DNA of 25,476 nucleotides from positions 1 to 25,476 of the IMG/VR virus record IMGVR_UViG_3300006641_000163. One strand, written 5' to 3'. The first letter of the stretch is position 1. Each line of letters begins with the position of its first letter. A program made the position numbers and the translations under genes. The notes under the pieces were generated by a model. That model searched no databases and was not told the origin of the DNA. It worked only from the letters and a program-made list of their open reading frames with translations. The DNA is from a virus. Shown one piece after another: positions 1,138 through 24,891 of this stretch.

Positions 1138-1440
1138 TTAGGTAGTGGAAATGACCGCGATCTTCAGGCCGGGGCGAACGCCCAGGTACTCGGTGCCCCC
1201 GGCGCCGATTCTCATCGACGTGGAGGCAGCCGTGGGGTTTGCGCCGATGGCGACGCGGCATGCCACATCGGCGTGGAGACGAACGAAACGGGTCGTGTCG
1301 GCGAACGCGCCCGACTGGGCTGACGCGCCACCGATCACAACCTGCTGGTTCACCAGCGCAGGCTCCTGGCCAGCGGGCACCAGATGCCCACGGCCGGCAG
1401 CCGTCAGCTCCTGGTACTCGGTGATGTCCAGTATTGCCAT
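1138..1440 (-). CDS. Putative virion protein, 100 aa
   Basis: This protein of 100 residues begins MAILDITEYQELTAAG and ends RPGLKIAVISTT. The second half (VRLHADVACRVAIG, then RIGAGGTEYLGVRPG) alternates hydrophobic and small residues, as in a compact beta-barrel. It sits 9 bp after the portal stop in the same leftward operon. Small proteins of this kind next to portal and coat genes are often head-fibre or decoration proteins. No enzyme motif is visible, and the exact role is unassigned. Confidence 0.55.
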   Translation of the reverse strand: MAILDITEYQELTAAGRGHLVPAGQEPALVNQQVVIGGASAQSGAFADTTRFVRLHADVACRVAIGANPTAASTSMRIGAGGTEYLGVRPGLKIAVISTT

Positions 1441-1449
1441 TGTGATGCC

Positions 1450-3648
1450 TCAGATGCCAGCGCCGGTGTTGACACGCAGCGCAGCCTCCGCGTTGAAGAT
1501 CTGACGCTCGTTGTCGATCTTCAGTGCCTCGAGGCGCTCCTTCGCGGCGATCTGCTCGCGAGTGAGCTGGGCGTCCTGGCCGAGCTTGGTCAGCGCCAGG
1601 TCGCGCTCGATGCCGGCCTCGGTCATCGCGATCTCGTACTCGGCCTGCTCGCGCTGGCGGTTGTACTCAGTCTGCTGAGCCTGCTGGGCGCGGACCTCCT
1701 TGTTGTCCGCCAGCTTGGCCATGTCGACCTCGGCCTTGATCTTGGCAGCCTCGATGCGAGGATCGGCCGGCGCGCCCTGCTGGGCCTGCGCCTGCATCTC
1801 CTGCTGCACCTGATCCTCGGGCTTGAGCAGCTCCTCAGGGTTGACCTTGAACGCCTTGAGGATGGCCTTGAGCTCCTCGCGCTCTTTGAGGTGCGGGATG
1901 TAGCGCGGGTTGTTCGTGATGTTGGCCAGGTTCAGCAAGGCCTGGTTCTGGATGTCGCGCTCAATCAGCGCGGTGGACCCGCGGGCGTCGATCTCGTAGT
2001 CGCCCTTGATGGCCGGGTCTGGATCGTTGGCCATCTTCCAGTCGTAGTACCTGCCGATGTGCGGCCTGGTGATCGTGTCGTCGTACAGCTTCACGCGCTG
2101 ACGCAGCACGGCGTTGGCGTTGTTGTACAGCATGACCATGCCGCCGACGGTCTCGGGCGCACTGCCCTGCTCGCCGCCCATGATCTGCGGCATGCTGGAC
2201 TCGGTGTCGGCGAACTGCATGGCAGCCTGCGCAATGGCCAGCAGCTCCTGCAGGTGCGAGTTGAACTCGAACACCGTCATGGCCGCACGCACGTCGTCGA
2301 GCTCGTCCTTGGCCAGCCAGACCTTGTTGGGCGTGATCTCGTAGCTGCCGTTCTGCGGGATCACCATGCCCTTCTTGATGACGATCTGGCCGCCCAGCGA
2401 GGTGCGCCCGTTGTCCATCACCTGGCGCCAGGCGCTGTTGACCACTCTCTGCTGGTGCTCGAGCTCGTCGGGCAGGCCGTAGCCGAACGGGCTGTCGTCG
2501 GCCTTGCGCCAGCAGTAGACGTCTACCGGCAGCGTGCGGTCCACGACCCACGACTCCATCGCACCCACGACCTTGTCGTTGACGATCACGAGCACGCCGA
2601 AGTCCACGTCGGTCAGCGGGTCGCCCGTGCGGCTGGAGAGCATCTCCATCTCTTCGGGCTCGATCTCGCCGTGGTACGTCCACATCTCGTAGGCGTCCTC
2701 GTTGATCATGTCGCGGATGATCCGGCCCTCGGCCACGCGCAGCTTCTGCGGCGGCGAGCGCAGCACCTCGCGGATGGCGTCCTCGTCGTAGCCTGGCAGG
2801 CCCACGAGCTGGCGCAGTTGCTTGCGCGTGACCATGCGGCGCATGAAGAATCCGCGGCCGGCCTGGTGGTCGTTGCCGCAGCTCGGGTCGAAGAAGCAGT
2901 CCCACGGGTCCATGCGCATGCTGGCCGGGACGATCGACTCGTTGATCTGCAGCGTCTGCGTGCCGCCGGCTTGAGGCAGCCAGACCTTGCTGGTCTGACG
3001 TGCAGGGAACGGGCCGTACAGCACCATCGTGCCCAGGCGCACGGCATCCTCGATGCCCTTGCGGCTCTCGCCGTTGTACTTGCACTCGGTCAGGCTGTCG
3101 TCGATCGAACGCTCCATGGCCTCGGCTGCCTGCTTGGCAGCCTCCATGATCGCGTTGGCCTCGTCGTTGGCGGTGAAGCCAGTGGGCTGGCCGGTGGCCG
3201 GGTCGACGGTCTGGGCGTTACTGCCCATCATGTCGGCCAGCTCAGGCATCGGCGTGGGACGGATGCCCCAGTTGCGGTCGTCCACGGGGAACAGGATCTC
3301 GCACATGCGCGCCACGGCCTGATCGACCTTCGGGCGCACGATGTTGATCACGACCCTCGAGCGCGTGCCGTCCTGCGCCTTGCGCGCAGGCGGGCCGTTG
3401 CGCAGGGTGTTCTCGAACTCGCCGGTGCTGTTGGTGTGCTCACCGAAGTAGAGCTGGGCGTTCTTGCGCCAGCGCTTCTCGACGTCGGTGTTGGTGGCGC
3501 GTGACTGCACCCACTGGTCGCGCATCTTGGCGAAGACGGCGTACAGGCGCTCGATCTCGCCCTTCTGGCGGTTGTCGAACTCTTCCTTGGTCAGCACGTC
3601 GTCGCCGACCATGTAGGCGACTTCGGGCGGTAGATCTTTGGGGTCCAT
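1450..3648 (-). CDS. Portal protein, P22-like length
   Basis: At 732 residues the protein matches the size of P22-type portals (725 residues) rather than the roughly 500-residue HK97 type. The portal forms the dodecameric ring at the capsid vertex through which terminase pumps DNA and to which the tail attaches. The core is mixed alpha/beta with features such as TRSRVVINIVRPKVDQAVARM near residue 100 and CYWRKADDSPFGYGLPDELE in the middle. The last 130 or so residues are a Gln/Ala/Glu-rich helix, which fits the C-terminal barrel seen in P22-like portals. It lies directly after the large terminase gene with a 9-bp gap, the standard order. The call combines length, neighbours and general similarity. 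Confidence 0.85.
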   Translation of the reverse strand: MDPKDLPPEVAYMVGDDVLTKEEFDNRQKGEIERLYAVFAKMRDQWVQSRATNTDVEKRWRKNAQLYFGEHTNSTGEFENTLRNGPPARKAQDGTRSRVVINIVRPKVDQAVARMCEILFPVDDRNWGIRPTPMPELADMMGSNAQTVDPATGQPTGFTANDEANAIMEAAKQAAEAMERSIDDSLTECKYNGESRKGIEDAVRLGTMVLYGPFPARQTSKVWLPQAGGTQTLQINESIVPASMRMDPWDCFFDPSCGNDHQAGRGFFMRRMVTRKQLRQLVGLPGYDEDAIREVLRSPPQKLRVAEGRIIRDMINEDAYEMWTYHGEIEPEEMEMLSSRTGDPLTDVDFGVLVIVNDKVVGAMESWVVDRTLPVDVYCWRKADDSPFGYGLPDELEHQQRVVNSAWRQVMDNGRTSLGGQIVIKKGMVIPQNGSYEITPNKVWLAKDELDDVRAAMTVFEFNSHLQELLAIAQAAMQFADTESSMPQIMGGEQGSAPETVGGMVMLYNNANAVLRQRVKLYDDTITRPHIGRYYDWKMANDPDPAIKGDYEIDARGSTALIERDIQNQALLNLANITNNPRYIPHLKEREELKAILKAFKVNPEELLKPEDQVQQEMQAQAQQGAPADPRIEAAKIKAEVDMAKLADNKEVRAQQAQQTEYNRQREQAEYEIAMTEAGIERDLALTKLGQDAQLTREQIAAKERLEALKIDNERQIFNAEAALRVNTGAGI

Positions 3649-8876: not shown

Positions 8877-8906
8877 AGTATAAGCAATGTGATGTTTCAA
8901 CCGCAA
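8877..8906 (-). promoter_or_regulatory. Leftward promoter with operator-like half-site
   Basis: On the minus strand TTGCGG (8901-8906) and TATACT (8877-8882) are 18 bp apart. The spacer contains CATCACATTGC (8884-8894), matching the recurrent operator core ATCACA-tTG. The promoter would drive the small-gene operon that starts at 8841, under the same regulator as the early rightward units. Confidence 0.55.
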
Positions 8907-10000: not shown

Positions 10001-12031
10001 TCAGTCAGCCGATCTAGACGCTTCCTGCGCCTCGATCGCGAGCTCCGCGGTCATTGAAAGGTGGTCGATCGCCTGCTCTGTGAGCTCCCATCCGTTCTTG
10101 CGATTGGCCCCCTGGACGGCCATTCCGTTGTCCTTCATGGCCTTCATGATGTTGCTCAGAGCGCGCTCGGAGCAGCCCAGGTTGGTGGCCATGACAGGCG
10201 CGCCAGGCCAGCCCTTTTGCATCAGCTTGACCACGTCGATGGCATTGATGGGCTGGCCGTTGATGCGTGATCCGACCTTGATGTCGAGCGGGTTGCCGTC
10301 GAACTGAATGTAGGCGCCGGTGATCTCGACGTCGCACGAGTCCACCACCCCGAGGCCGATCTGGGTAATCTTGAAGCGCTTGGCCTCAGGCATCTCGGCG
10401 TCCTTCATCTTGGTCACCTTGAGCTCCAAGATGCCGCCGGTGCCCTTGACCTGGAACTCCTGGTCCATGGCCGCCTTGAAGGCGCTGGAGCCTCTGGCGC
10501 GGTCCATCTCGTGGCCTGAGTGGTGGACGGTCAGGTTGTGGCAGTGGTACTCGCGCCTGATCTCGTCTGTGGCCTCGATGAAGCGGTTGGCGTCCTGCTG
10601 CTTGTTCTCGTCTCCGTCGCCAAAGTTGCGGGCCAGGGTGTCGATGACGACCAGCGCCGGGATCTGGCCAGTCTCGGCGATCATGCGGTTGATTTCGGCC
10701 TTGAGCTTGTCTGGTGCGTCCGGGTCCAGCATCTGCACGGCGTGGTTGGACTTGAAGAGCGGCGTGTCCTTGGTGATGGCCACCCCAGTGGCCTTGGACC
10801 ATGCTGCAAAACGCCTGGCCAGGCCCTGGTGGCCCTCGCCTGCGATGTAGAACACGGCGCCCTGCTTGACTGGGCATCCGAACCAAGGCGTGCCTGTGGC
10901 CACGCTGCAGGCCATGGACACGGCCACAAAGCTCTTGCCACCGCCTGACGGGCCGTAGAGCATGCCGAGCGCGTCCGCCTCGACGTATCCCTCGATGATC
11001 CAGTCGATGGACTTGATCTCGCCCAGCAGCTCGTGGACGGGGGTGAACAGGGGCTTGTCGGGCAGGATCTCGCCCGTCTCGTTGTCGATCGTGGGTGGAG
11101 GTGCCAGCGGCCGAAACTTCTCCTGCGCCGTGCTCACGCTGCGTGGGATGTCGTTGTAGCGTGCGAGCCAGCGGTCGTCCTTCGGCGCCAGGGAGGCGTC
11201 CATCAGGCCACGCAGCAGGTTGACGATCGCCCCGCCCTTGGCGCCTGAGGCCACCATGCTGGCGGCCACCATGTTCAGGCTGTCGTGCAGGTTCTCGCCG
11301 CGGATGATGTTGGTCGTCAGGATGCGCAGCCGCTCATCCTGCTCGCCCATGTGCATGGACGGTGCGGATGCCTCATGCGCATGCTCTGTGCGCAGGGTCT
11401 CAAGGTCGATGCCGAAGATGGCGGCGGCGTCTTCGAGGCTGTAGCGTGCCTTGGGGTTCCAGTACTCCACGACGTGAGCGAACGGCCCGCTGTCTCGTGG
11501 CTTCTGGTTCTGCCCGATGGGCAGGCGGACGTACCGCACGGCGTTGTTGCCCGACTTGTCCGCCTTGATGTAGCCCCGCTCGGCCATCGCGGTGACCAGC
11601 CGGGTGACGAGCTCGAGGTTCGCGCAGTCGGGGTCCTTGGTGTCGAGCAGGATGCCGATCTGGCGCTTGCCGGGGCTGGTCTCGATGCCCCAGCTTGGCG
11701 TGCCCTGCAGGTCTTCTGGATTGACGTCGTCGGCCACCAGCGCCAGCAGGCGCGTGAAGTGGCTCTTGCGCCGGTGCATGACGCCTTCGAGGGGTCTGAC
11801 CGCGCCCACCGAGAAGTAGGTGTTCTGCCTGCCCCACCCGTCGACCTCGGCCGCGTGCAGGGCTGGGTTGTAGGCCTTGCCTGACCAGCTCGCCTGGTCC
11901 GAGTTGGGGTTGCCGATGAAGGCGTTGACCCACACCGTCGATCCGCGAGGGGCTGCAGCGAGCACCTCCTGGAGGAACTCGCTGTTGGTCACGACTACAC
12001 CATTGTGATGTTCATTGCTGCTGCTGTTCAC
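10001..12031 (-). CDS. Primase-helicase: RepB-like primase plus RepA-like ATPase
   Basis: This is a 676-residue fusion. The N-terminal third matches a RepB/archaeo-eukaryotic-type primase: ALVADDVN (D101/D102), ETSPGKRQIGILLD (117-130) and RYVRLPIGQNQK (166-176). The middle is a RepA-like RecA-fold helicase: Walker A GPSGGGKS (360-367), GEG (398-400), Walker B VVIDTLAR (461-468), then VHHSGH (502-507) and RGSSA (513-517). The C-terminal 70 residues look like a winged helix (VMATNLGCSERALSNIMKAM). It would unwind and prime phage DNA, with iterons just downstream as likely target. The start is GTG 12031, with AAGGG upstream. An operator-like site lies inside codons 7-13. Confidence 0.85.
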   Translation of the reverse strand: MNSSSNEHHNGVVVTNSEFLQEVLAAAPRGSTVWVNAFIGNPNSDQASWSGKAYNPALHAAEVDGWGRQNTYFSVGAVRPLEGVMHRRKSHFTRLLALVADDVNPEDLQGTPSWGIETSPGKRQIGILLDTKDPDCANLELVTRLVTAMAERGYIKADKSGNNAVRYVRLPIGQNQKPRDSGPFAHVVEYWNPKARYSLEDAAAIFGIDLETLRTEHAHEASAPSMHMGEQDERLRILTTNIIRGENLHDSLNMVAASMVASGAKGGAIVNLLRGLMDASLAPKDDRWLARYNDIPRSVSTAQEKFRPLAPPPTIDNETGEILPDKPLFTPVHELLGEIKSIDWIIEGYVEADALGMLYGPSGGGKSFVAVSMACSVATGTPWFGCPVKQGAVFYIAGEGHQGLARRFAAWSKATGVAITKDTPLFKSNHAVQMLDPDAPDKLKAEINRMIAETGQIPALVVIDTLARNFGDGDENKQQDANRFIEATDEIRREYHCHNLTVHHSGHEMDRARGSSAFKAAMDQEFQVKGTGGILELKVTKMKDAEMPEAKRFKITQIGLGVVDSCDVEITGAYIQFDGNPLDIKVGSRINGQPINAIDVVKLMQKGWPGAPVMATNLGCSERALSNIMKAMKDNGMAVQGANRKNGWELTEQAIDHLSMTAELAIEAQEASRSAD
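11996..12011. promoter_or_regulatory. Operator-like site inside start of primase-helicase gene
   Basis: The minus strand reads ACATCACAATGGTGTA, matching the recurrent TATCACAAtGnTG core. It lies about 20-36 bp downstream of the GTG start and encodes His-His-Asn-Gly. Binding here would block elongation rather than initiation. It may be a weaker member of the family. Confidence 0.45.
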
Positions 12032-12189
12032 GCGAGCCCTTCCCTACTTTGGGGGAAGTGTGCCCGGCTGCTGAGGGTGCTGCCATCTTGTTCTTCCACT
12101 GAGAACGCCACACTGTGAAACCTTCGGCAGGCGGGTGTGGTGACCGCTCTTCGGGAGCTACCCTAGCCGAGGCCCAATTCTGTCCGTCA

Positions 12190-12205
12190 GATCACCATTG
12201 TGATA
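12190..12205. promoter_or_regulatory. Operator-like palindrome upstream of primase-helicase
   Basis: The sequence GATCACCATTGTGATA has perfect ATCAC/GTGAT arms. It lies in the 210-bp space between cro and the primase-helicase gene, which also holds a weaker relative at 12109-12121 (CACACTGTGAAA). I could not assign convincing -35 and -10 boxes for the replication gene in this gap; cro readthrough is possible. Confidence 0.55.
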
Positions 12206-12241
12206 CCTGCGCAAAACGATAAGCGGCGCTTGCGCCCGACT

Positions 12242-12253
12242 TCACGCTCGTGA
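12242..12253. promoter_or_regulatory. Operator-like palindrome at the cro stop codon
   Basis: TCACG-CT-CGTGA is a perfect 12-bp palindrome that includes the cro stop codon. It is continuous with GATA on one side, resembling the TATCACA-nn-TGTGATA family. Confidence 0.4.
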
Positions 12254-12442
12254 TACCTTTTTGCCCAGGATCTCGGGGGAGGCGCGTAGCTTACCCCGAG
12301 TGATGTGCTCGATCCTGAGCTGCTGCAAGTGAGGGATGCGGCCACGCGCTTTCCAGTTGGACAGCGTGGGCTGGGTCACGCCCAGCTTGGTGGCTGCTGC
12401 CACCTGCGTGCCGAAGTGCGCGATGAGGTCGTCGAAGTCCAT
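12242..12442 (-). CDS. Cro-like HTH regulator, 66 aa
   Basis: From ATG 12442 the 66-residue product is a single helix-turn-helix domain (TQVAAATKLGVTQPTLSNWK, residues 12-31). It is followed by RIEHITRGKLRAS, the pattern of YdaS/Cro-type phage regulators. It diverges from the CI-like gene and shares the promoter region with it, as in a lysis-lysogeny switch. Its promoter is at 12473-12501; the leader is about 24 nt and no strong ribosome site is visible. The last codons (GTATCACGAGCGTGA) form an operator-like palindrome at 12242-12253. An upstream in-frame extension to 12562 was rejected because it would cross the promoter. Confidence 0.8.
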   Translation of the reverse strand: MDFDDLIAHFGTQVAAATKLGVTQPTLSNWKARGRIPHLQQLRIEHITRGKLRASPEILGKKVSRA

Positions 12443-12554: not shown

Positions 12555-12899
12555 ATGACCAAGAACTTTGAGAAGCTGACGATCGGCGATAGGCTGCGCT
12601 ACCTGATCGAGGTGCGCGAGTACACGCAAGTAGAGCTGGCGGCCAAGATTGGTCTAACCCAAGCCGCCATCTCGAACATCGTGACGAACTCATCTCGCAA
12701 ACCGAGTGCGCCAACCCTGCTCAAGCTCGCTGCCGCACTGCAAGCCAACCCCGACTGGATCCTGACAGGACAGGGCCAGCCGTTTGAGATCAACACCATC
12801 AGCGCCCAGTCCGAGAAAGACCTCCTGGAAGCGTTCCGCAACATGGACGACCAGGCCAAGGTAGCCCTCCTCGCCGCGGCCAAGGCGATGGCCAAGTAA
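12555..12899 (+). CDS. CI-like HTH repressor without peptidase domain, 114 aa
   Basis: The 114-residue product (ATG 12555; TTG 12549 also possible) has an HTH_3/XRE domain with TQVELAAKIGLTQAAISNIV at residues 24-43 and a helix LLKLAAALQANPDWILTGQG typical of CI-like repressors. The C-terminal 35 residues are helical (SEKDLLEAFRNMDDQAKVAL) and suit dimerisation. There is no LexA/S24 Ser-Lys peptidase domain, so RecA-triggered self-cleavage is not expected. It diverges from cro. No strong ribosome site is visible, which fits a weakly translated or leaderless message. It is a prime candidate to bind the dispersed operator sites. Confidence 0.8.
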   Translation: MTKNFEKLTIGDRLRYLIEVREYTQVELAAKIGLTQAAISNIVTNSSRKPSAPTLLKLAAALQANPDWILTGQGQPFEINTISAQSEKDLLEAFRNMDDQAKVALLAAAKAMAK

Positions 12900-12923: not shown

Positions 12924-12982
12924 TATCACAATGCCCATACATTTTTGTCAACCAATCGCCCATGGACTTCACAACTGTGATG
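12924..12982 (+). promoter_or_regulatory. Paired operator sites before first rightward unit
   Basis: TATCACAATGCCCATA (12924-12939) and TTCACAACTGTGATG (12968-12982) lie 44 bp apart, start to start. The second has a perfect TCACA-AC-TGTGA core and runs into TGTAAT (12981-12986) as a -10 box. The matching -35 position (GCCCAT) is poor, unlike the later modules. This region would control the gene at 13021. Confidence 0.6.
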
Positions 12983-13581: not shown

Positions 13582-13623
13582 AATCACATTGCTGTTGACC
13601 TGACTTCACACTTGTGATGTAAT
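13582..13623 (+). promoter_or_regulatory. Dual-operator promoter module 1
   Basis: The -35 TTGACC (13595-13600) and -10 TGTAAT (13618-13623) are 17 bp apart. One operator copy, AATCACATTGCTG (13582-13594), sits immediately upstream of the -35. A second, TTCACACTTGTGATG (13605-13619), with perfect TCACA/TGTGA arms, fills the spacer. The two start exactly 23 bp apart. It drives the gene at 13656. Confidence 0.75.
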
Positions 13624-13655
13624 CCTCTTGTCCCAGCAATCAACCGGAGAGCAGC

Positions 13656-13922
13656 ATGAAGGTTTTTGAATTCGACCCCTCCACCGGCAAGCGCGGCGCT
13701 CAGATCGCCGACATCCAGCGTCCCGACTTCCTGCGCAACACCGGCATGGCCAAGTGCGCCCTGCCCCGCGCAGCCCGCGACACCCAGTGGGCCGTGGCCA
13801 CTGAGGCCTTCGGCCGCAACAACGAGCGGATCGAGTTCGACCGGCCGGTGTGCTTCTGCCTCGGTCAGTGGACCGCCGGCACCGACACGACCTGGCAGTG
13901 GTACGCGCTGCTTCCCAACTGA
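13656..13922 (+). CDS. Unknown early protein, 88 aa
   Basis: Start ATG 13656 with CCGGAGAG upstream. The product MKVFEFDPSTGKRGAQIADI, then IEFDRPVCFCLGQWTAGTDT and WQWYALLPN, appears as a small beta-rich domain. No known motif. It is the first gene of a unit that also includes the gene at 13941, 18 bp downstream. Confidence 0.6.
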   Translation: MKVFEFDPSTGKRGAQIADIQRPDFLRNTGMAKCALPRAARDTQWAVATEAFGRNNERIEFDRPVCFCLGQWTAGTDTTWQWYALLPN

Positions 13923-13940
13923 CATCAACCGGAGACCCAC

Positions 13941-14360
13941 ATGCGCAACCTCACCTTCCCCAACGGTTCCAAGTTCTCCCGCTTCGACGACGTCAAGAAC
14001 GCCGTCAGCGGCGCCTACCAGGACGCACTGCGGTGGTCCAAGCGCGACATCGGCGCCGGCTGCTACCGCAGCCGCGGCAAGTGGCTCAAGGCGATCGACG
14101 CCAACGGCAACCTCCTGGCCGGCGACTGCGACTCGTGGGAGTGGGACGGCACGCTCAAGTCCCTGATCGCCGCGATCAACGAGACCAGGTTCGGCGAGCC
14201 CAAGGCCGTGGCCCTGTTCCTCGAGGGCGGCGTCGACTACGCGGCCAGCCTGCGCGACTTCAGCGACGGCGCCTACGACCCGTGGGTCGGCGAGTGGTCT
14301 GTCGCAGTCTGGGAGAAGCCCGAATATCACAATGCTGTTGACAGCACTTCACAGACGTGA
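13941..14360 (+). CDS. Unknown early protein, 139 aa, C-terminus made of operator DNA
   Basis: Start ATG 13941 with CCGGAGA upstream. The product is Trp/Gly/Asp-rich (AYQDALRWSKRDIGAGCYRS, then GDCDSWEWDGTLKSL). The last eleven residues (YHNAVDSTSQT) and the stop codon are encoded by the dual-operator promoter module at 14325-14366, so they were probably acquired with that DNA and are not part of the folded domain. Function unknown. Confidence 0.6.
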   Translation: MRNLTFPNGSKFSRFDDVKNAVSGAYQDALRWSKRDIGAGCYRSRGKWLKAIDANGNLLAGDCDSWEWDGTLKSLIAAINETRFGEPKAVALFLEGGVDYAASLRDFSDGAYDPWVGEWSVAVWEKPEYHNAVDSTSQT

Positions 14361-14366
14361 TGTAAT
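14325..14366 (+). promoter_or_regulatory. Dual-operator promoter module 2
   Basis: The -35 TTGACA (14338-14343) is consensus, the spacer is 17 bp, and the -10 is TGTAAT (14361-14366). TATCACAATGCTG (14325-14337) abuts the -35 and TTCACAGACGTGATG (14348-14362) fills the spacer, 23 bp start to start. The module overlaps the end of the upstream gene and drives the unit at 14424. Confidence 0.8.
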
Positions 14367-14389
14367 CACTTCGTCAGAGATGACACCGG

Positions 14390-14405
14390 CCCGGCGGATC
14401 CCGGG
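14390..14405 (+). promoter_or_regulatory. Leader hairpin shared by three early transcripts (copy 1)
   Basis: CCCGG-CGGATC-CCGGG lies in the 5' leader of the transcript from module 2, flanked by GACACCGG and GACG. Near-identical hairpins occur in the leaders at 15250-15265 and 16600-16614. No U-tract follows, so it is not an ordinary terminator. Confidence 0.55.
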
Positions 14406-14423
14406 ACGCGACAGGAGTCCGAT

Positions 14424-14732
14424 ATGACCACCATTCGTTTGATCGTCGAGCACAACCGCCTGAGCTTTCCGTTCGGCGGCACCGACTTCAGCAAGCCCGG
14501 CTGCCCTACCAGCCGCGACGTGTCCTCCATCCTTGCCCGCCGCTACGACGCCGGCGACTTCGACACGATCTCGTGGCCGCTGCCACGCGGCAAAGCCAAG
14601 CGCGAGAGTGCGCTTAGAAACCTTGCCTACGCCCTGTTCGACGAGCGCGAGTGCAACGACCTCTTCCCCTACGACGCCGTGATCGAGCTGCCTGACGGCA
14701 CCGTGTTCAATTTCGACGACCTTGTCCGCTGA
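14424..14732 (+). CDS. Unknown early protein, 102 aa
   Basis: Start ATG 14424 with AGGAG upstream. The product has RLIVEHNRLSFPFGGTDFSK, then SILARRYDAGDFDTISWPLP and DAVIELPDGTVFNFDDLVR. It looks like a small alpha/beta protein. First gene after module 2 and its leader hairpin; the next gene starts 15 bp later. No family recognised. Confidence 0.6.
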   Translation: MTTIRLIVEHNRLSFPFGGTDFSKPGCPTSRDVSSILARRYDAGDFDTISWPLPRGKAKRESALRNLAYALFDERECNDLFPYDAVIELPDGTVFNFDDLVR

Positions 14733-14746
14733 ACGGAGACATCACC

Positions 14747-15217
14747 ATGCTGTACTTCAAGATCGATGACAACCAGAACGTCGTGGCCATCGCCGAGCAG
14801 ATGCCCGCCGAGCTCAACACCCCCAACGGCTACACGTTGTGGAGCCGCCAGATGGACGGCACGCGCCACGCCGGCTGGCTCAACCGCAACGACATGCCCG
14901 ACATCGAGTACGCGCAGATGATCGCGGCCGGCGCCTCGACCTTCACCGGCAAGCCCTACATCGCGATCGACTCCGGCCCTGACGTGGCGCCCCGCTTCAA
15001 CGTGATCCGCGCCCCTGCGGTCGGCGACGACGTCAGCATGGCCTTCAACGGCGACTACTACCCCGTCGGCAAAATCCTCAAGATCAGCAAGTCGCTCAAG
15101 CAGGTCACCACCAGCAGCGGCCGCAAGTTCTACCGCCGCGGCACCAGCGGCGCCTGGCTCAACGGCTACTTCGCCTTGATCCAGGGCACCGTCAGCCGCC
15201 TCAACCCTGAGTTCTGA
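14747..15217 (+). CDS. Unknown early protein, 156 aa
   Basis: Start ATG 14747 with CGGAGA upstream, in the same unit as the gene at 14424. The N-terminal half is a small domain (YFKIDDNQNVVAIAEQMPAE). The C-terminal half, after VIRAPAVGDDVSMAFNGDYY, contains a basic strand-rich segment (GKILKISKSLKQVTTSSGRK) that looks like an SH3/KOW-like barrel. A nucleic acid-binding role is possible. No catalytic motif is seen. Confidence 0.6.
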   Translation: MLYFKIDDNQNVVAIAEQMPAELNTPNGYTLWSRQMDGTRHAGWLNRNDMPDIEYAQMIAAGASTFTGKPYIAIDSGPDVAPRFNVIRAPAVGDDVSMAFNGDYYPVGKILKISKSLKQVTTSSGRKFYRRGTSGAWLNGYFALIQGTVSRLNPEF

Positions 15218-15239
15218 AGTATCACAACTGTGATATGAT
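15211..15239 (+). promoter_or_regulatory. Promoter with perfect-arm operator
   Basis: TATCACA-AC-TGTGATA (15220-15235) has perfect 7-bp arms, the best single operator in the window. It overlaps a -10 box TATGAT (15234-15239). The -35 region 17 bp upstream (GTTCTG) is weak, so the start site call is less secure than for the dual modules. It drives the gene at 15284. Confidence 0.65.
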
Positions 15240-15249
15240 GCAGACCTGG

Positions 15250-15265
15250 CCCGGCAGTTTCCGGG
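15250..15265 (+). promoter_or_regulatory. Leader hairpin shared by three early transcripts (copy 2)
   Basis: CCCGG-CAGTTT-CCGGG lies 11 bp after the -10 of the operator promoter at 15211-15239, flanked by CCTGG and GACG. The stem is identical to the copies at 14390 and 16600 while the loop differs, so the stem appears to be the conserved part. Confidence 0.55.
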
Positions 15266-15283
15266 ACGTCAACGGAGACCGAG

Positions 15284-15517
15284 ATGCGAGTTTTTTCTCC
15301 CCAAGAGCAGCAAGACCTGCTCGCCACCGTCGACCGCAACATCGCGATGTTCAAGACCTACACCGGCGCGCACGCCGAAGCCGTGCTCGCTGAGCTGATC
15401 GACGGCCGCGCTGCTGCTGTCGAGTCCTTCGCCGGCCGCCTCGACTGGTACGAGGTCCCGTACCGGATTCGCGAGCTGCGCCAAGTGATGCCCGAGTGGG
15501 GCACCCGCGGCACCTGA
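15284..15517 (+). CDS. Unknown early protein, 77 aa
   Basis: Start ATG 15284 with CGGAGA upstream. The product is a short helical protein (VFSPQEQQDLLATVDRNIAM, then HAEAVLAELIDGRAAAVESF, ending VMPEWGTRGT). First gene after the operator promoter at 15211-15239, followed 24 bp later by the gene at 15542. Function unknown. Confidence 0.6.
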   Translation: MRVFSPQEQQDLLATVDRNIAMFKTYTGAHAEAVLAELIDGRAAAVESFAGRLDWYEVPYRIRELRQVMPEWGTRGT

Positions 15518-15541
15518 TCAATCACCAACCGGAGACGACGA

Positions 15542-15841
15542 ATGAGCTACTCAAACCCCATGCACCACGACACCATGAAGCCCATGCCCCCCAAGTTCCG
15601 CAGCGCCTTCGCTGCCTTCAAGAAGATGGGCGTGCCCGTCTACCAGCACCCCGACGACAGCCGCAACTTCTCGATCGACGCCGAGGCGTCTGACGCCGAG
15701 CGGTGGGTCGACTACTACGGCAACCCGTACCGCGAAGACCTCGTGTTCGGTGTCCACATCGACCTCGAGCGCGAGCTGCAGAAGCGCGGCCTGTACGCCG
15801 AGTGGGTCAACCCCGGCCGCCTGGCCGTGTACGAGGGCTGA
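15542..15841 (+). CDS. Unknown early protein, 99 aa
   Basis: Start ATG 15542 with CCGGAGA upstream. The product contains FRSAFAAFKKMGVPVYQHPD, then WVDYYGNPYREDLVFGVHID and ends GRLAVYEG. It looks like a compact alpha/beta fold. The stop overlaps the next ATG (TGATG), implying coupled translation. Function unknown. Confidence 0.6.
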   Translation: MSYSNPMHHDTMKPMPPKFRSAFAAFKKMGVPVYQHPDDSRNFSIDAEASDAERWVDYYGNPYREDLVFGVHIDLERELQKRGLYAEWVNPGRLAVYEG

Positions 15842-16086
15842 TGATGAGAGTCCGCATCATCGTCGGCGCAGAGGCCGCCTACGCCTCAATCCAGACCTCC
15901 GGCGCCTTCATGGACGTGCGCCTGGAGCCAGGCCGGTCAGCGGCGCGTTCGCTGCGCGAGACGGCCGAGGAGTGGCGCGAGAAAGCCGCCAGGCTGCAGC
16001 AGCGCGCCATGTATCTCACCGAGGCCGCGGCCCAGCTCGAGGAAGACGAGAAGGCCGGCCGCAAGTACGCATCGAGGGTAACGTGA
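15841..16086 (+). CDS. Small protein with helical coil, 81 aa
   Basis: The ATG at 15841 overlaps the upstream stop; a second ATG follows directly. The N-terminal part is a short beta segment (RVRIIVGAEAAYASIQTSGA). From about residue 38 it is a long charged helix (LRETAEEWREKAARLQQRAM and on). The stop overlaps the GTG of the HD-domain gene, so the two are likely translated together and could interact. Function unknown. Confidence 0.6.
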   Translation: MMRVRIIVGAEAAYASIQTSGAFMDVRLEPGRSAARSLRETAEEWREKAARLQQRAMYLTEAAAQLEEDEKAGRKYASRVT

Positions 16087-16562
16087 AAGAAGATCTACTC
16101 AACGCCATCGAGATCGCAGCCGTGGCCCACGATGGCCAGGTCGACGGTGCCGGCAGGCCGTACCTCCTGCACTGCCTGGCCGTGATGCGCACGGTGGCCA
16201 AGAAGCTGCCGAACAACATTGACGCCCAGGTGGCCGCGGTGCTGCACGACGTGCTCGAGGACACGTCGTTGACGACGCACAGTCTGCGTCGGCACGGCGT
16301 CAGCGAGGAGGCAATCTTCCTTGCGGTCATCCTCAGTCGCGAGCCCGACGAGACTTACGAGCAGTTCATCGGCACCATCATCAAAGCCGGCCCGGTGGCC
16401 ATCACGATCAAGCTCGCCGACATCAAGCACAACCTGTCGCGCATCGACGGCCTGCCGGCTGAACGCCGCGCCAGGCTCGAGCCACGCTACCGGGCAGCCA
16501 AAAAGAAGTTGACTGTTGCACTCAAGTATCACAATGGTGTTGCACAGACTTCACAACTGTGA
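16083..16562 (+). CDS. RelA/SpoT-type HD hydrolase, candidate (p)ppGpp hydrolase
   Basis: From GTG 16083 (GTGA overlap, GAGGG upstream) the product is 159 residues, the size of stand-alone small alarmone hydrolases such as MESH1. The motif order fits: AAVAHDGQVDGAGRPYLLH with H30, VAAVLHDVLEDT with H55, D56, E59 and D60, and TIKLADIKHNLSR with D113 and N117. There is no synthetase domain. Members with this set use a metal to remove pyrophosphate from (p)ppGpp. Lowering the stringent response during infection is a plausible role, but related HD proteins can hydrolyse other nucleotides. The last twelve residues are encoded by operator module 3. Confidence 0.75.
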   Translation: MKEDLLNAIEIAAVAHDGQVDGAGRPYLLHCLAVMRTVAKKLPNNIDAQVAAVLHDVLEDTSLTTHSLRRHGVSEEAIFLAVILSREPDETYEQFIGTIIKAGPVAITIKLADIKHNLSRIDGLPAERRARLEPRYRAAKKKLTVALKYHNGVAQTSQL

Positions 16563-16569
16563 TGAAATC
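16528..16569 (+). promoter_or_regulatory. Dual-operator promoter module 3
   Basis: TATCACAATGGTG (16528-16540) precedes the -35 TTGCAC (16541-16546). The 17-bp spacer holds TTCACAACTGTGATG (16551-16565), and the -10 is TGAAAT (16564-16569). The operators again start exactly 23 bp apart. The module overlaps the end of the HD-hydrolase gene and drives the unit at 16633. Confidence 0.75.
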
Positions 16570-16599
16570 ACTCTTGTCGACGGAGCAGTCGACACCGAC

Positions 16600-16614
16600 C
16601 CGGCGGCACCGGGC
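16600..16614 (+). promoter_or_regulatory. Leader hairpin shared by three early transcripts (copy 3)
   Basis: CCCGG-CGGCA-CCGGG lies in the leader from module 3, flanked by GACACCGA and CGC. Just upstream is a second inverted repeat, GTCGAC-GGAGCA-GTCGAC (16577-16594). The shared flank GACACCG with copy 1 suggests that promoter and leader were duplicated together. Confidence 0.55.
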
Positions 16615-16632
16615 GCTCCAGAAGGACGCAAC

Positions 16633-17474: not shown

Positions 17475-17677
17475 ACAAGCTCAACATCAAGGCCGCAAGC
17501 CTTTCTGTCATGCACGGCCACCCGCTGGACCGCCGCGGCTGCTACGTCGACGTCACGCTGCACCTCAGCGACGACCAGATTAAGGACGCGCTGTACGAGC
17601 TCATCAGTTCGCTGCGGCTTTCAGAGGTCGAGCACATGCTGCGCAACGAGTTCCCAGACCTGTTCGAAAGCGCTTGA
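17471..17677 (+). CDS. Unknown early protein, 68 aa
   Basis: The ATG at 17471 overlaps the previous TGA and follows AGGAGA. The product contains MHGHPLDRRGCYVDVTLHLS, then DDQIKDALYELISSLRLSEV and ends EFPDLFESA. Probably an alpha/beta single domain. Its stop lies within the promoter at 17674-17701. Function unknown. Confidence 0.6.
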   Translation: MNKLNIKAASLSVMHGHPLDRRGCYVDVTLHLSDDQIKDALYELISSLRLSEVEHMLRNEFPDLFESA

Positions 17678-17701
17678 CCAGCATCACAATGCTGATACAC
17701 T
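17674..17701 (+). promoter_or_regulatory. Promoter with operator in spacer
   Basis: The -35 TTGACC (17674-17679) and -10 TACACT (17696-17701) are 16 bp apart, and the spacer is filled by CATCACAATGCTGATA (17682-17697). The operator also forms a CAGCAT-CACA-ATGCTG inverted repeat. It drives the gene at 17748 and overlaps the end of the upstream gene. Confidence 0.7.
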
Positions 17702-18141: not shown

Positions 18142-18167
18142 GGGCAATATCACATTGCCCATTTTTT
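18142..18167 (+). terminator. Rightward terminator containing an operator-like core
   Basis: GGGCAAT-ATCAC-ATTGCCC is a perfect 7-bp stem with a 5-nt loop, followed by ATTTTTT. It also contains TATCACATTG (18148-18157), matching the operator core. It lies 20 bp before the start of the Sak4-like gene and no promoter is visible in between, so the recombination genes would depend on readthrough. Confidence 0.75.
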
Positions 18168-18186
18168 CACCTTGCCTGGAGACGAC

Positions 18187-23604: not shown

Positions 23605-24662
23605 GAAAGCGCATCCCCCACTTCCACGAGAAGCGCGGCAAGAACTGGGTCGCGTACTACCACGTCGTGCGCAAGGGCGACAAGGTGGTGTGGACCAGCC
23701 TGGGCACTGACCGATCGGCAGCGCTGCGCAAGTGGGCTGAGTTCGAGATGCAGCCGGTGCCGGCTGAGGCGGGGTCGTTCGACGCGATCATCGGGCAGTA
23801 CATGAAGTGGGCCCGGGCCGCGGTCGAAGACGGCACCCTGGCGCCTCGCACCTACGAGGACCGGGAGAAGTACCAGAAGGTCATGCTCACCGTGTTCGGT
23901 GGCAAGCCCTTCGAGGCCATCGAGTCCCAGCACGTCAGGCTCTACATCGACAAGCGCAGCGCCAAGATCAGCGCCAAGAAGGAGATGCGGTTCCTGTCGG
24001 TGCTCTGGAACTGGGCACGCGAGCGCGGCATCACGCGGCTGTCGAACCCGGTGGCCGGCGTGAAGATGCCCAAGGAGGAGGGGCGCGACATCGAGGTCCG
24101 GCCGCAGGACTACTGGCTGGTCTGGGAGTGCGGCGACCAACTGGTCAAGGACGTCCTCGAGCTGGCCGCCCGGCTGGGCACGCGCCCGCAGGAAGTGTTC
24201 GACCTGTCGTGGGACAAGATCGACCTGGCCGCAGCCCCGATGACCGTCAAGGTATGGCAGAACAAGGTCAAGAGCTGGCGCACCGTGATCGCAGACCCCG
24301 AGCTGGAGGCCATCCTGGCCCGCCTGAGAGGCGATCTGGCCCGTCCTAAGGGCAAGGTACTGGTCGACGAAAACGGCGCAGCCTTGAACCCGCTGGGGGC
24401 CTTCCGCTACCGCTTCCTGCAGGCCCGAACCGATGCCATGGCCAAGGCCGAGGCGGAGGGGCTGGACCACCAGGACTTCCAGCTCCGGGACCTGCGGCCG
24501 ATGGCGGGCCTGGCGATGCTGGATGCGCAGGGCATGGACGCGGCGCGCCGACTGCTGGGTCACAGCACCGAGCGGATGACCGCCCACTACACCACGCAGC
24601 GCCGCGGCCAGGTCTCGGAGGCTGCCAAAATTGTTAGAAGTACTTCTAACCCATCACAATGA
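23601..24662 (+). CDS. int: Tyrosine recombinase (phage integrase)
   Basis: The 353-residue product from GTG 23601 has an N-terminal arm-binding domain, a core-binding domain (about 60-150, FDAIIGQYMKWARAAVEDGT) and a catalytic domain. Catalytic residues are R195 (LGTRPQEVFDLSW), K222 or K224 in the basic turn, R299 in LRDLRPMAG, H321 in LLGHS and Y330 in AHYTTQ. The usual His of H-x-x-R is R296. It would recombine attP with the host tRNA-Cys gene; a tRNA-Cys 3' fragment lies 27 bp downstream. Its last codons and stop (CCA TCA CAA TGA) lie in an operator-like palindrome. Confidence 0.9.
   Translation: MRKRIPHFHEKRGKNWVAYYHVVRKGDKVVWTSLGTDRSAALRKWAEFEMQPVPAEAGSFDAIIGQYMKWARAAVEDGTLAPRTYEDREKYQKVMLTVFGGKPFEAIESQHVRLYIDKRSAKISAKKEMRFLSVLWNWARERGITRLSNPVAGVKMPKEEGRDIEVRPQDYWLVWECGDQLVKDVLELAARLGTRPQEVFDLSWDKIDLAAAPMTVKVWQNKVKSWRTVIADPELEAILARLRGDLARPKGKVLVDENGAALNPLGAFRYRFLQARTDAMAKAEAEGLDHQDFQLRDLRPMAGLAMLDAQGMDAARRLLGHSTERMTAHYTTQRRGQVSEAAKIVRSTSNPSQ
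24633..24650. repeat. Perfect 18-bp palindrome near attP
   Basis: GTTAGAAGTACTTCTAAC is a perfect palindrome inside the last integrase codons. Half-sites recur at 24801-24808 (GTTCTAAC) and 24866-24873 (GTTAGAAG), on the other side of the tRNA fragment. This pattern suits arm-type integrase or excisionase binding sites. Confidence 0.55.
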
Positions 24663-24665: not shown

Positions 24666-24688
24666 AGTTCGTAAGTGCTTGATTTCAT

Positions 24689-24737
24689 TGGAGGCGGGAG
24701 TCGGAATCGAACCGGCGTCCACGGCTTTGCAGGCCGG
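24689..24737 (-). other. attP core: 3' part of tRNA-Cys
   Basis: On the minus strand the 3' end of a tRNA-Cys can be read: CCGGC stem, CTGCAAA anticodon loop (GCA at 24728-24730), GCCGT, a 4-nt variable region, T-arm with TTCGATT loop, and TCCCGCC-T-CCA. U73 and the 4-nt variable region fit tRNA-Cys. The T-stem has one mismatch. No matching GGCGGGA 5' acceptor strand or D-arm exists, so this is a fragment, not a gene. It lies 27 bp from the integrase stop, the usual place for an attachment core that restores the host tRNA on integration. Confidence 0.8.
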
Positions 24738-24809
24738 TGCCACCGGAGGCCCGAGAGCCAGTATCCATGCGGGTTTCCGGCCGGTTCGGCTGGTCGGCTC
24801 GTTCTAACA

Positions 24810-24819
24810 TATCACAATG
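24810..24819. promoter_or_regulatory. Operator-like site downstream of attP
   Basis: TATCACAATG is preceded by TTCTAACA. The 18-bp TTCTAACATATCACAATG (24802-24819) matches TTCTAACCCATCACAATG (24644-24661) at 16 of 18 positions, so the two flank the tRNA fragment as direct repeats. No convincing -35/-10 pair is seen. The rest of 24738-24891 shows no gene. Confidence 0.45.
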
Positions 24820-24891
24820 CCTATCGCCCGGCAGGCAGCACCAATGCTGGGCGCAACCCTTGAAAGTTAGAAGCAGAAAGGAAGGCCGCTG

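Follow-up and report, generated by a model that had tools for sequence, protein, structure and literature searches.

Dispersed repressor-type sites and a candidate leader RNA beside a lambda-like cro/cI pair in an uncultured phage family

Early promoters and their operators

The DNA analyzed here, positions 1-25,476 of the IMG/VR virus record IMGVR_UViG_3300006641_000163 (25,476 nt, referred to as the window), carries a divergent pair of cro-like and cI-like genes and a series of predicted early promoters (A to E), three of which repeat one arrangement of two sites and are called cassettes A, B, and C. Sequence comparison establishes two classes of site with their statistics, orientation, placement, and restriction to one phage group, as well as covariation in a leader RNA and recombination through the cassettes; cassettes A-C are a subset of a much larger set of repressor-type sites present across an uncultured phage family. 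Early promoters with operators are the ordinary part of such a temperate phage; the dispersed, oriented sites beside a lambda-type switch, their persistence without cI, the promoter-linked leader, and the exchange of modules are the unusual part. An initial annotation had interpreted the cassettes as regulated dual-site promoters, which is supported by the present analysis; it had missed the genome-wide site set, the hairpin leader at the transcript start, and the adjoining cro and cI. The features of this region are the following.

12241-12254, plus strand: CG-centred palindrome within an antisense promoter, PRE-like and directed at cI, at the 3′ end of cro (promoter assigned by eye)
12242-12442, minus strand: cro-like gene, 66 amino acids (P22_Cro, PF14549, E 1.5e-15; 1rzs among the PDB chain matches)
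12555-12899, plus strand: cI-like XRE repressor gene, 114 amino acids (HTH_3, PF01381, E 9.8e-12; P22 C2 and 434 repressor chains among the PDB matches)
12925-12934, plus strand: asymmetric site 43 bp upstream of the promoter D palindrome (pattern match)
12968-12981, plus strand: palindrome of promoter D, PL-like, the first promoter after cI (pattern match)
13582-13623, plus strand: cassette A (asymmetric site 13583, -35 box 13595-13600, palindrome 13605-13618, -10 box 13618-13623)
14325-14366, plus strand: cassette B (asymmetric site 14326, -35 box 14338-14343, palindrome 14348-14361, -10 box 14361-14366)
15221-15234, plus strand: palindrome of promoter E, without an upstream asymmetric site (pattern match)
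16527-16568, plus strand: cassette C (asymmetric site 16528, -35 box 16540-16545, palindrome 16550-16563, -10 box 16563-16568)

The pattern ATCACAWTGNTGTTGN6CTTCACANNNGTGATG matches the window exactly three times (at 13583, 14326, and 16528, all on the plus strand), with 0 matches expected and none in 100 dinucleotide shuffles of the window. The three repeated cassettes thus exist; the third, reported at 16528-16569, is present and starts one base further to the left, at 16527. Promoter boxes were predicted from sequence by direct reading of -35/-10 pairs, and both the boxes (TTGACC/TGTAAT, TTGACA/TGTAAT, and TTGCAC/TGAAAT) and their 17-bp spacing agree with the earlier description in all three cassettes. 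The distance of 23 bp between the two sites of a cassette has to be corrected: in register (ATCACA to TTCACA) it is 22 bp, the larger value being obtained if the count begins at TATCACA for one site and at TTCACA for the other. Nor are the two sites alike, as had been assumed; the upstream one is asymmetric (TATCACAATG) and the downstream one a near-perfect dyad. Searching IMG/VR with the cassette pattern gave 24 matches on 17 contigs, each within the phage group already reached by protein search. As a side aspect, cassettes B (14325-14360) and C (16527-16562) encode, in the same frame, the last codons of the respective upstream gene, ending in EYHNAVDSTSQT and KYHNGVAQTSQL, each followed by the stop.

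The palindromic site (type 1, WTCACN4GTGAW) occurs seven times in the window, where 0.08 are expected (0/100 shuffles). Its position in the early promoters is partly over the spacer, from which it continues into an extended -10 (TGATGTAAT, or TGATATAAT in more distant relatives). Two more early promoters contain the palindrome with no site at 22 bp; the one at 12968 is preceded by a site 43 bp upstream, the one at 15221 by none. The fixed spacing proposed in the initial annotation is refuted by the relatives, the distances being 22, 23, 24, or 43 bp or the upstream site lacking. Among 76 distinct palindrome contexts, many of which are homologous copies and a few of which are type 2 sites themselves (see below), an exact type-2-like site, with G also allowed at the sixth base, lies upstream in 29 (22 bp in 18, 23 bp in two, 24 bp in four, and 43 bp in five) and a one-mismatch site in three further ones (21 bp in one, 24 bp in two); the remaining 44 have no upstream site with 0-1 mismatch within 50 nt. 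For comparison, the exact site was present in 70 of 5000 random 50-nt windows. All these spacings (21-24 and 43 bp) are close to an integral number of helical turns and hence compatible with the earlier suggestion of cooperative dimers on one face of the DNA.

Dispersed asymmetric sites

The asymmetric site (type 2), ATCACAWTGS, mostly with a preceding T (tATCACA(A/T)TG(C/G)), is present 11 times in the window (0.12 expected; 0/100 shuffles) and has the half-site ATCACA in common with type 1. Seven related records contain 74 such sites, 7 to 18 per record, and none of the reversed pattern; as these records share ancestry, the sites in the combined set of 85 are homologous rather than independent. 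Co-direction with transcription is seen for 82 of the 85, and 68 lie outside called genes. The majority is found in short intergenic gaps or at start codons; a common arrangement is a stop codon, a few bases, and tATCACAATG, the ATG being the start of the next gene. Within the window, nine of the 11 sites are not wholly within a gene, while only 10.8% of positions qualify (binomial p 9e-8).

Following ATCACA, the 137 intergenic or gene-end occurrences are led by ATGC (23), TTGC (21), ATGG (14), and ATGA (13), and the 32 coding occurrences have no clear preference for the next bases. The TG breaks the dyad in the base table; as the search pattern behind that table already contained TG[C/G], its prominence rests on the count of following bases. 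Counted from the first base of ATCACA, a -10-like hexamer starts at a distance of 10-14 bases in 25 of 85 sites, and no site has one at 15-21 bases (this count used a slightly different locus set, likewise of 85 distinct sites), which argues that type 2 sites are also promoter operators and have a role at the DNA level. Further, type 2 tracks the phage group, with 103 sites in 287.7 kb and 55 in 149.6 kb, versus two in 482.1 kb of 52 loci that are linked through one other gene only and in which cro and cI were not searched for. Reversed and complemented control patterns had no match in 919 kb. Limnohabitans phage DC33, which like two other named phages had a short DNA match, was considered and rejected: its two asymmetric-site matches are not above chance, two being reached in 16 of 100 shuffles. 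This entry (L020, PQ492659.1), which is circular, 39 kb long, and contains a gene of 9.4 kb, is assigned in its record to Inoviridae, apparently wrongly.

The remaining asymmetric sites of the window are listed here.

1437-1446, minus strand: asymmetric site at the start codon of a minus-strand gene (pattern match)
8884-8893, minus strand: asymmetric site within the spacer of a promoter-like sequence preceding a minus-strand gene (pattern match)
12000-12009, minus strand: asymmetric site at the start of the primase-helicase gene (pattern match)
12195-12204, minus strand: asymmetric site between cro and the primase-helicase gene (pattern match)
17674-17701, plus strand: promoter-like TTGACC-16-TACACT with the asymmetric site (17683) as spacer (pattern match)
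18142-18160, plus strand: terminator-like hairpin with the asymmetric site (18149) in its loop and 3′ arm (hairpin scan; five such hairpins versus 5.0 in shuffles)
24811-24820, plus strand: asymmetric site in the gap following the integrase gene (pattern match)

The terminator-like hairpin containing a type 2 site (GGGCAATATCACATTGCCC, 18142-18168) is also present in L013 (14604) and L010 (4129) and recurs in many relatives.

A hairpin leader at early promoters

A leader follows promoters B, C, and E as well as the majority of early promoters in the relatives; promoters A and D of the window do not have it. Its second hairpin has the form CCNGGC(A/G)G..CCNGG; the first, present in B and C, lies near the presumed transcript start.

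14362-14415, plus strand: leader RNA of cassette B, two hairpins; the modelled stretch begins inside the -10 box (covariance model match, 56.6 bits, and covariation)
15235-15275, plus strand: leader RNA of promoter E, second hairpin only (covariance model match, 38.1 bits)
16564-16623, plus strand: leader RNA of cassette C, two hairpins (covariance model match, 46.2 bits)

In an alignment of 20 leaders, 96.6% of the pair cells are standard and six of nine pairs have two-sided changes, neither value being reached in 500 shuffles; slid structures drop to 26-62% paired. The measure of further pair types is unexceptional (reached by 85 of the 500). A search with a covariance model gave 82 matches distributed over 47 loci; 20 of the matches had built the model, and 81 are on the early-transcribed strand. 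One match, on the minus strand of L010 (E 0.069), is probably due to chance. The leaders of the window, L009, and L046 are not covered by any Rfam family, and in the 52 distant loci the best match had an E of 0.1, which was taken as none. The leader is probably an antitermination or 5′ stability element, the role being a guess.

Cassettes as joints of gene blocks

In four relatives (L007, L023, L025, and L042) the upstream flank of A is joined via a cassette to the downstream flank of B. In these hybrids a homolog of gene 13232 (95-100% identical) directly adjoins gene B, with 13656 and 13941 missing; both of these genes are present wherever A has its own downstream flank (the window, L035, L037, and L040). 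There is no common breakpoint, L023 retaining the CCTGAC of A and the others carrying the AGCAC of B. The upstream and downstream flanks of cassette C assort as well. The absence of exactly the two genes between A and B across hybrid A/B cassettes indicates that the cassettes serve as joints for the exchange of gene blocks. Of the earlier proposal that the cassette had been copied or moved as a unit, exchange through the cassettes thus stands, and duplication of the cassette itself finds no support.

The cro/cI switch

The layout resembles that of lambda, whose arrangement of cro/cI, PL, PR, and PRE serves as the comparison: the replication genes are on the minus strand, and the small genes, recombination genes, and integrase gene on the plus strand. 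The PDB chains matched by the Cro-like protein include 1rzs, a chain of P22 Cro. The CI-like protein of 114 amino acids matched helix-turn-helix (HTH) families only in Pfam, with neither a peptidase (self-cleavage) domain nor a stoperator domain. The recognition segments of the two are alike (TQAAISN in CI, TQPTLSN in Cro), consistent with the common half-site. On the side of promoter D the pair has the palindrome; the cro promoter has only a conserved TGTGAT half-site by a -10-like box. At the 3′ end of cro the antisense promoter sequence, TTCACN3CGTGATAC, was found in 14 of 14 loci with both cro and cI and in none of four without cI (L010, which starts inside the region and has no cro, was omitted); its occurrence only together with cI suggests a role in cI expression.

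Homologs of cro were found in all 12 records searched, homologs of cI in eight. In the other four (G006, G009, G010, and G011), reading of the sequence next to cro revealed no cI; as the records are fragments, cI may be located elsewhere. These four keep cro and the sites, so that Cro probably binds the sites too, and prophage silencing by CI cannot be their only role. L035, L037, L040, and L046 are without cI in the interval from cro to the early promoter and also lack the antisense promoter sequence, and the search for an integrase homolog was negative for these four fragmentary records; possibly they are virulent derivatives.

A scan of IMG/VR with a CI alignment gave no relatives between 36% and 74% identity, so that a change in the recognition helix cannot be matched to a change in the site, and a CI alignment had five weak, unrelated matches in genome contigs. 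All tblastn matches of six window proteins (CI, the AAA_24 protein, Cro, primase-helicase, the phrog_9742 protein, and integrase) in cultured phages were below 60% identity.

Two other elements were noticed. Between cro and the primase-helicase gene, 12108-12173 on the minus strand matches the int-alpA RNA (RF02996) with 36.0 bits (gathering threshold 35.8), and L046 has a near match at a like place (3284-3348, minus strand). At the end of the integrase gene lies a perfect palindrome, GTTAGAAGTACTTCTAAC (24633-24650), with more TTCTAAC/GTTAGAAG copies within 24680-24875; the stretch between them resembles by eye the 3′ part of a tRNA-Cys gene, and ARAGORN found no tRNA. Together, these elements may represent an attP with arm-type sites.

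Proposed function and alternatives

The explanation we favor, and consider rather probable, is that CI/Cro operators at the early promoters are combined with genome-wide asymmetric sites which act much like the stoperators of phage L5. The spacer and extended -10 of each early promoter would contain a palindromic operator for CI/Cro; promoters A-C would additionally have, just upstream of the -35, a member of the asymmetric set with the same half-site, for which the predicted CI/Cro target sequence is TATCACAATGC. We infer that bound repressor, CI in lysogens and probably Cro in lytic growth, closes these promoters and, at asymmetric sites in gaps, at start codons, and in other promoter spacers, blocks local initiation or roadblocks passing polymerase. 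Many early transcripts would then start with the conserved one- or two-hairpin leader. A bolder version, which is unlikely, takes the window as a stoperator network outside the actinobacteriophages that is read by the 66-amino-acid Cro together with CI: Cro would lower transcription genome-wide via the oriented sites in lytic growth, the leader would protect early transcripts from termination, and cI-less phages would keep the network because Cro uses it.

Several observations weigh against the favored explanation. The central TG[C/G] breaks the dyad, which leaves the reading of type 2 by a dimeric CI or Cro unexplained, and CI is without the second DNA-binding domain found in L5-type repressors. 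The four cI-less records retain 25 type 2 sites in 95.2 kb, possibly as remnants of a recent loss of cI. Further, 17 asymmetric sites are within genes (15 co-directional, two opposite), some sites contain the very ATG that the simple in-house gene finder, from which all gene starts were taken, had picked as start, and the sites of related records do not count as independent.

A plain lambda-like network, in which all sites are CI/Cro promoter operators, the asymmetric ones being weak or asymmetric variants, and elongation is not blocked, is somewhat unlikely. Asymmetric operators have a precedent in phage P1 C1; here, about 25 of the 85 asymmetric sites lie in a promoter-like spacer, some promoters (L015, 11132) have a type-2-like sequence in place of the palindrome, and the asymmetric sites are in helical phase with it. 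Such a network does not account for the many sites at stop/start junctions without a recognized promoter (e.g., TGAGGTATCACAATG) nor for the near-complete co-direction. Near-strict co-direction, overlap with start codons, and persistence without cI would also be expected if UAUCACAAUGC acted in the mRNA, as a translational operator or small-RNA target near start codons, its likeness to the half-site being incidental. This we regard as highly improbable; the half-site is common to promoter palindromes that themselves lie upstream of the predicted transcript starts, about one-fourth of the sites are placed between -35 and -10, and the sites are in helical phase with the palindromes. Coincidence or a codon-usage artefact deserves practically no credence and was rejected, as the reversed and complemented controls and the shuffles were empty.

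Relation to known systems

A limited keyword search of the published literature found neither the site nor the leader. As described in the accessible parts of the respective papers, the stoperators of Cluster A mycobacteriophages (L5 gp71, Bxb1, and TipsytheTRex repressor) are short, asymmetric, dispersed, mainly intergenic, and oriented with transcription, some being located in promoters (PMC9283540, PMC3029335, PMC6550527). By that description the sites of the window are similar: many, asymmetric, dispersed, co-directional, and mostly intergenic. They differ in sequence, in coexisting with palindromic operators, and in persisting where cI is missing. The repressors differ as well, the one here comprising 114 amino acids with one HTH domain and the Cluster A repressor, according to the portions available, about 183 residues with an HTH and a stoperator domain; a divergent cro/cI pair is present here and, as far as that source goes, absent from Cluster A (PMC6550527). 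Outside the actinobacteriophages, T1-like phages and a Nostoc cyanophage are named in the sections at hand as possible stoperator cases, none with a demonstrated binder. T1, Stevie, and TLS, lytic phages, have 22-bp asymmetric, intergenic, co-directional repeats which the authors likened to stoperators and for which the excerpts state no known role (PMC4319613, PMC11447400). To judge from these excerpts, the sites here have the same asymmetry, intergenic location, and co-direction; their sequence is unrelated, and the cro/cI switch offers candidate binders.

With the immunity regions of lambda and P22, the window has in common the divergent cI/cro, early promoters with operators, and an antisense promoter at the 3′ end of cro directed towards cI; unlike there, the operators recur along the early operon and the genome, and CI is without a self-cleavage domain.

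The nearest functional parallel to the leader would be the put RNA of HK022, which, in the part of the paper at hand, has two stem-loops in about 70 nt, putL directly following PL (PMC9378689). Like putL/putR as described there, the leaders at B and C form two stem-loops directly after a predicted early promoter; they are shorter, occur at several promoters and sometimes with one hairpin (E), and no sequence match was established. The leader RNA is a new candidate antitermination or stability element.

Stoperators are established, as far as the consulted sources describe, for Cluster A actinobacteriophages, whose repressors have a dedicated second domain, and the T1-like repeats are without a known binder (PMC4319613, PMC11447400). 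Here, a comparable network adjoins a compact cro/cI pair, and natural cI-less phages separate the two candidate regulators. This raises the questions whether promoter cassettes serve as module joints and whether a small lambda-type repressor or Cro can be a directional roadblock; the Kpn2I C protein, as presented in the available part of that study, suggests such an ability for small regulators of this general type (PMC6237814).

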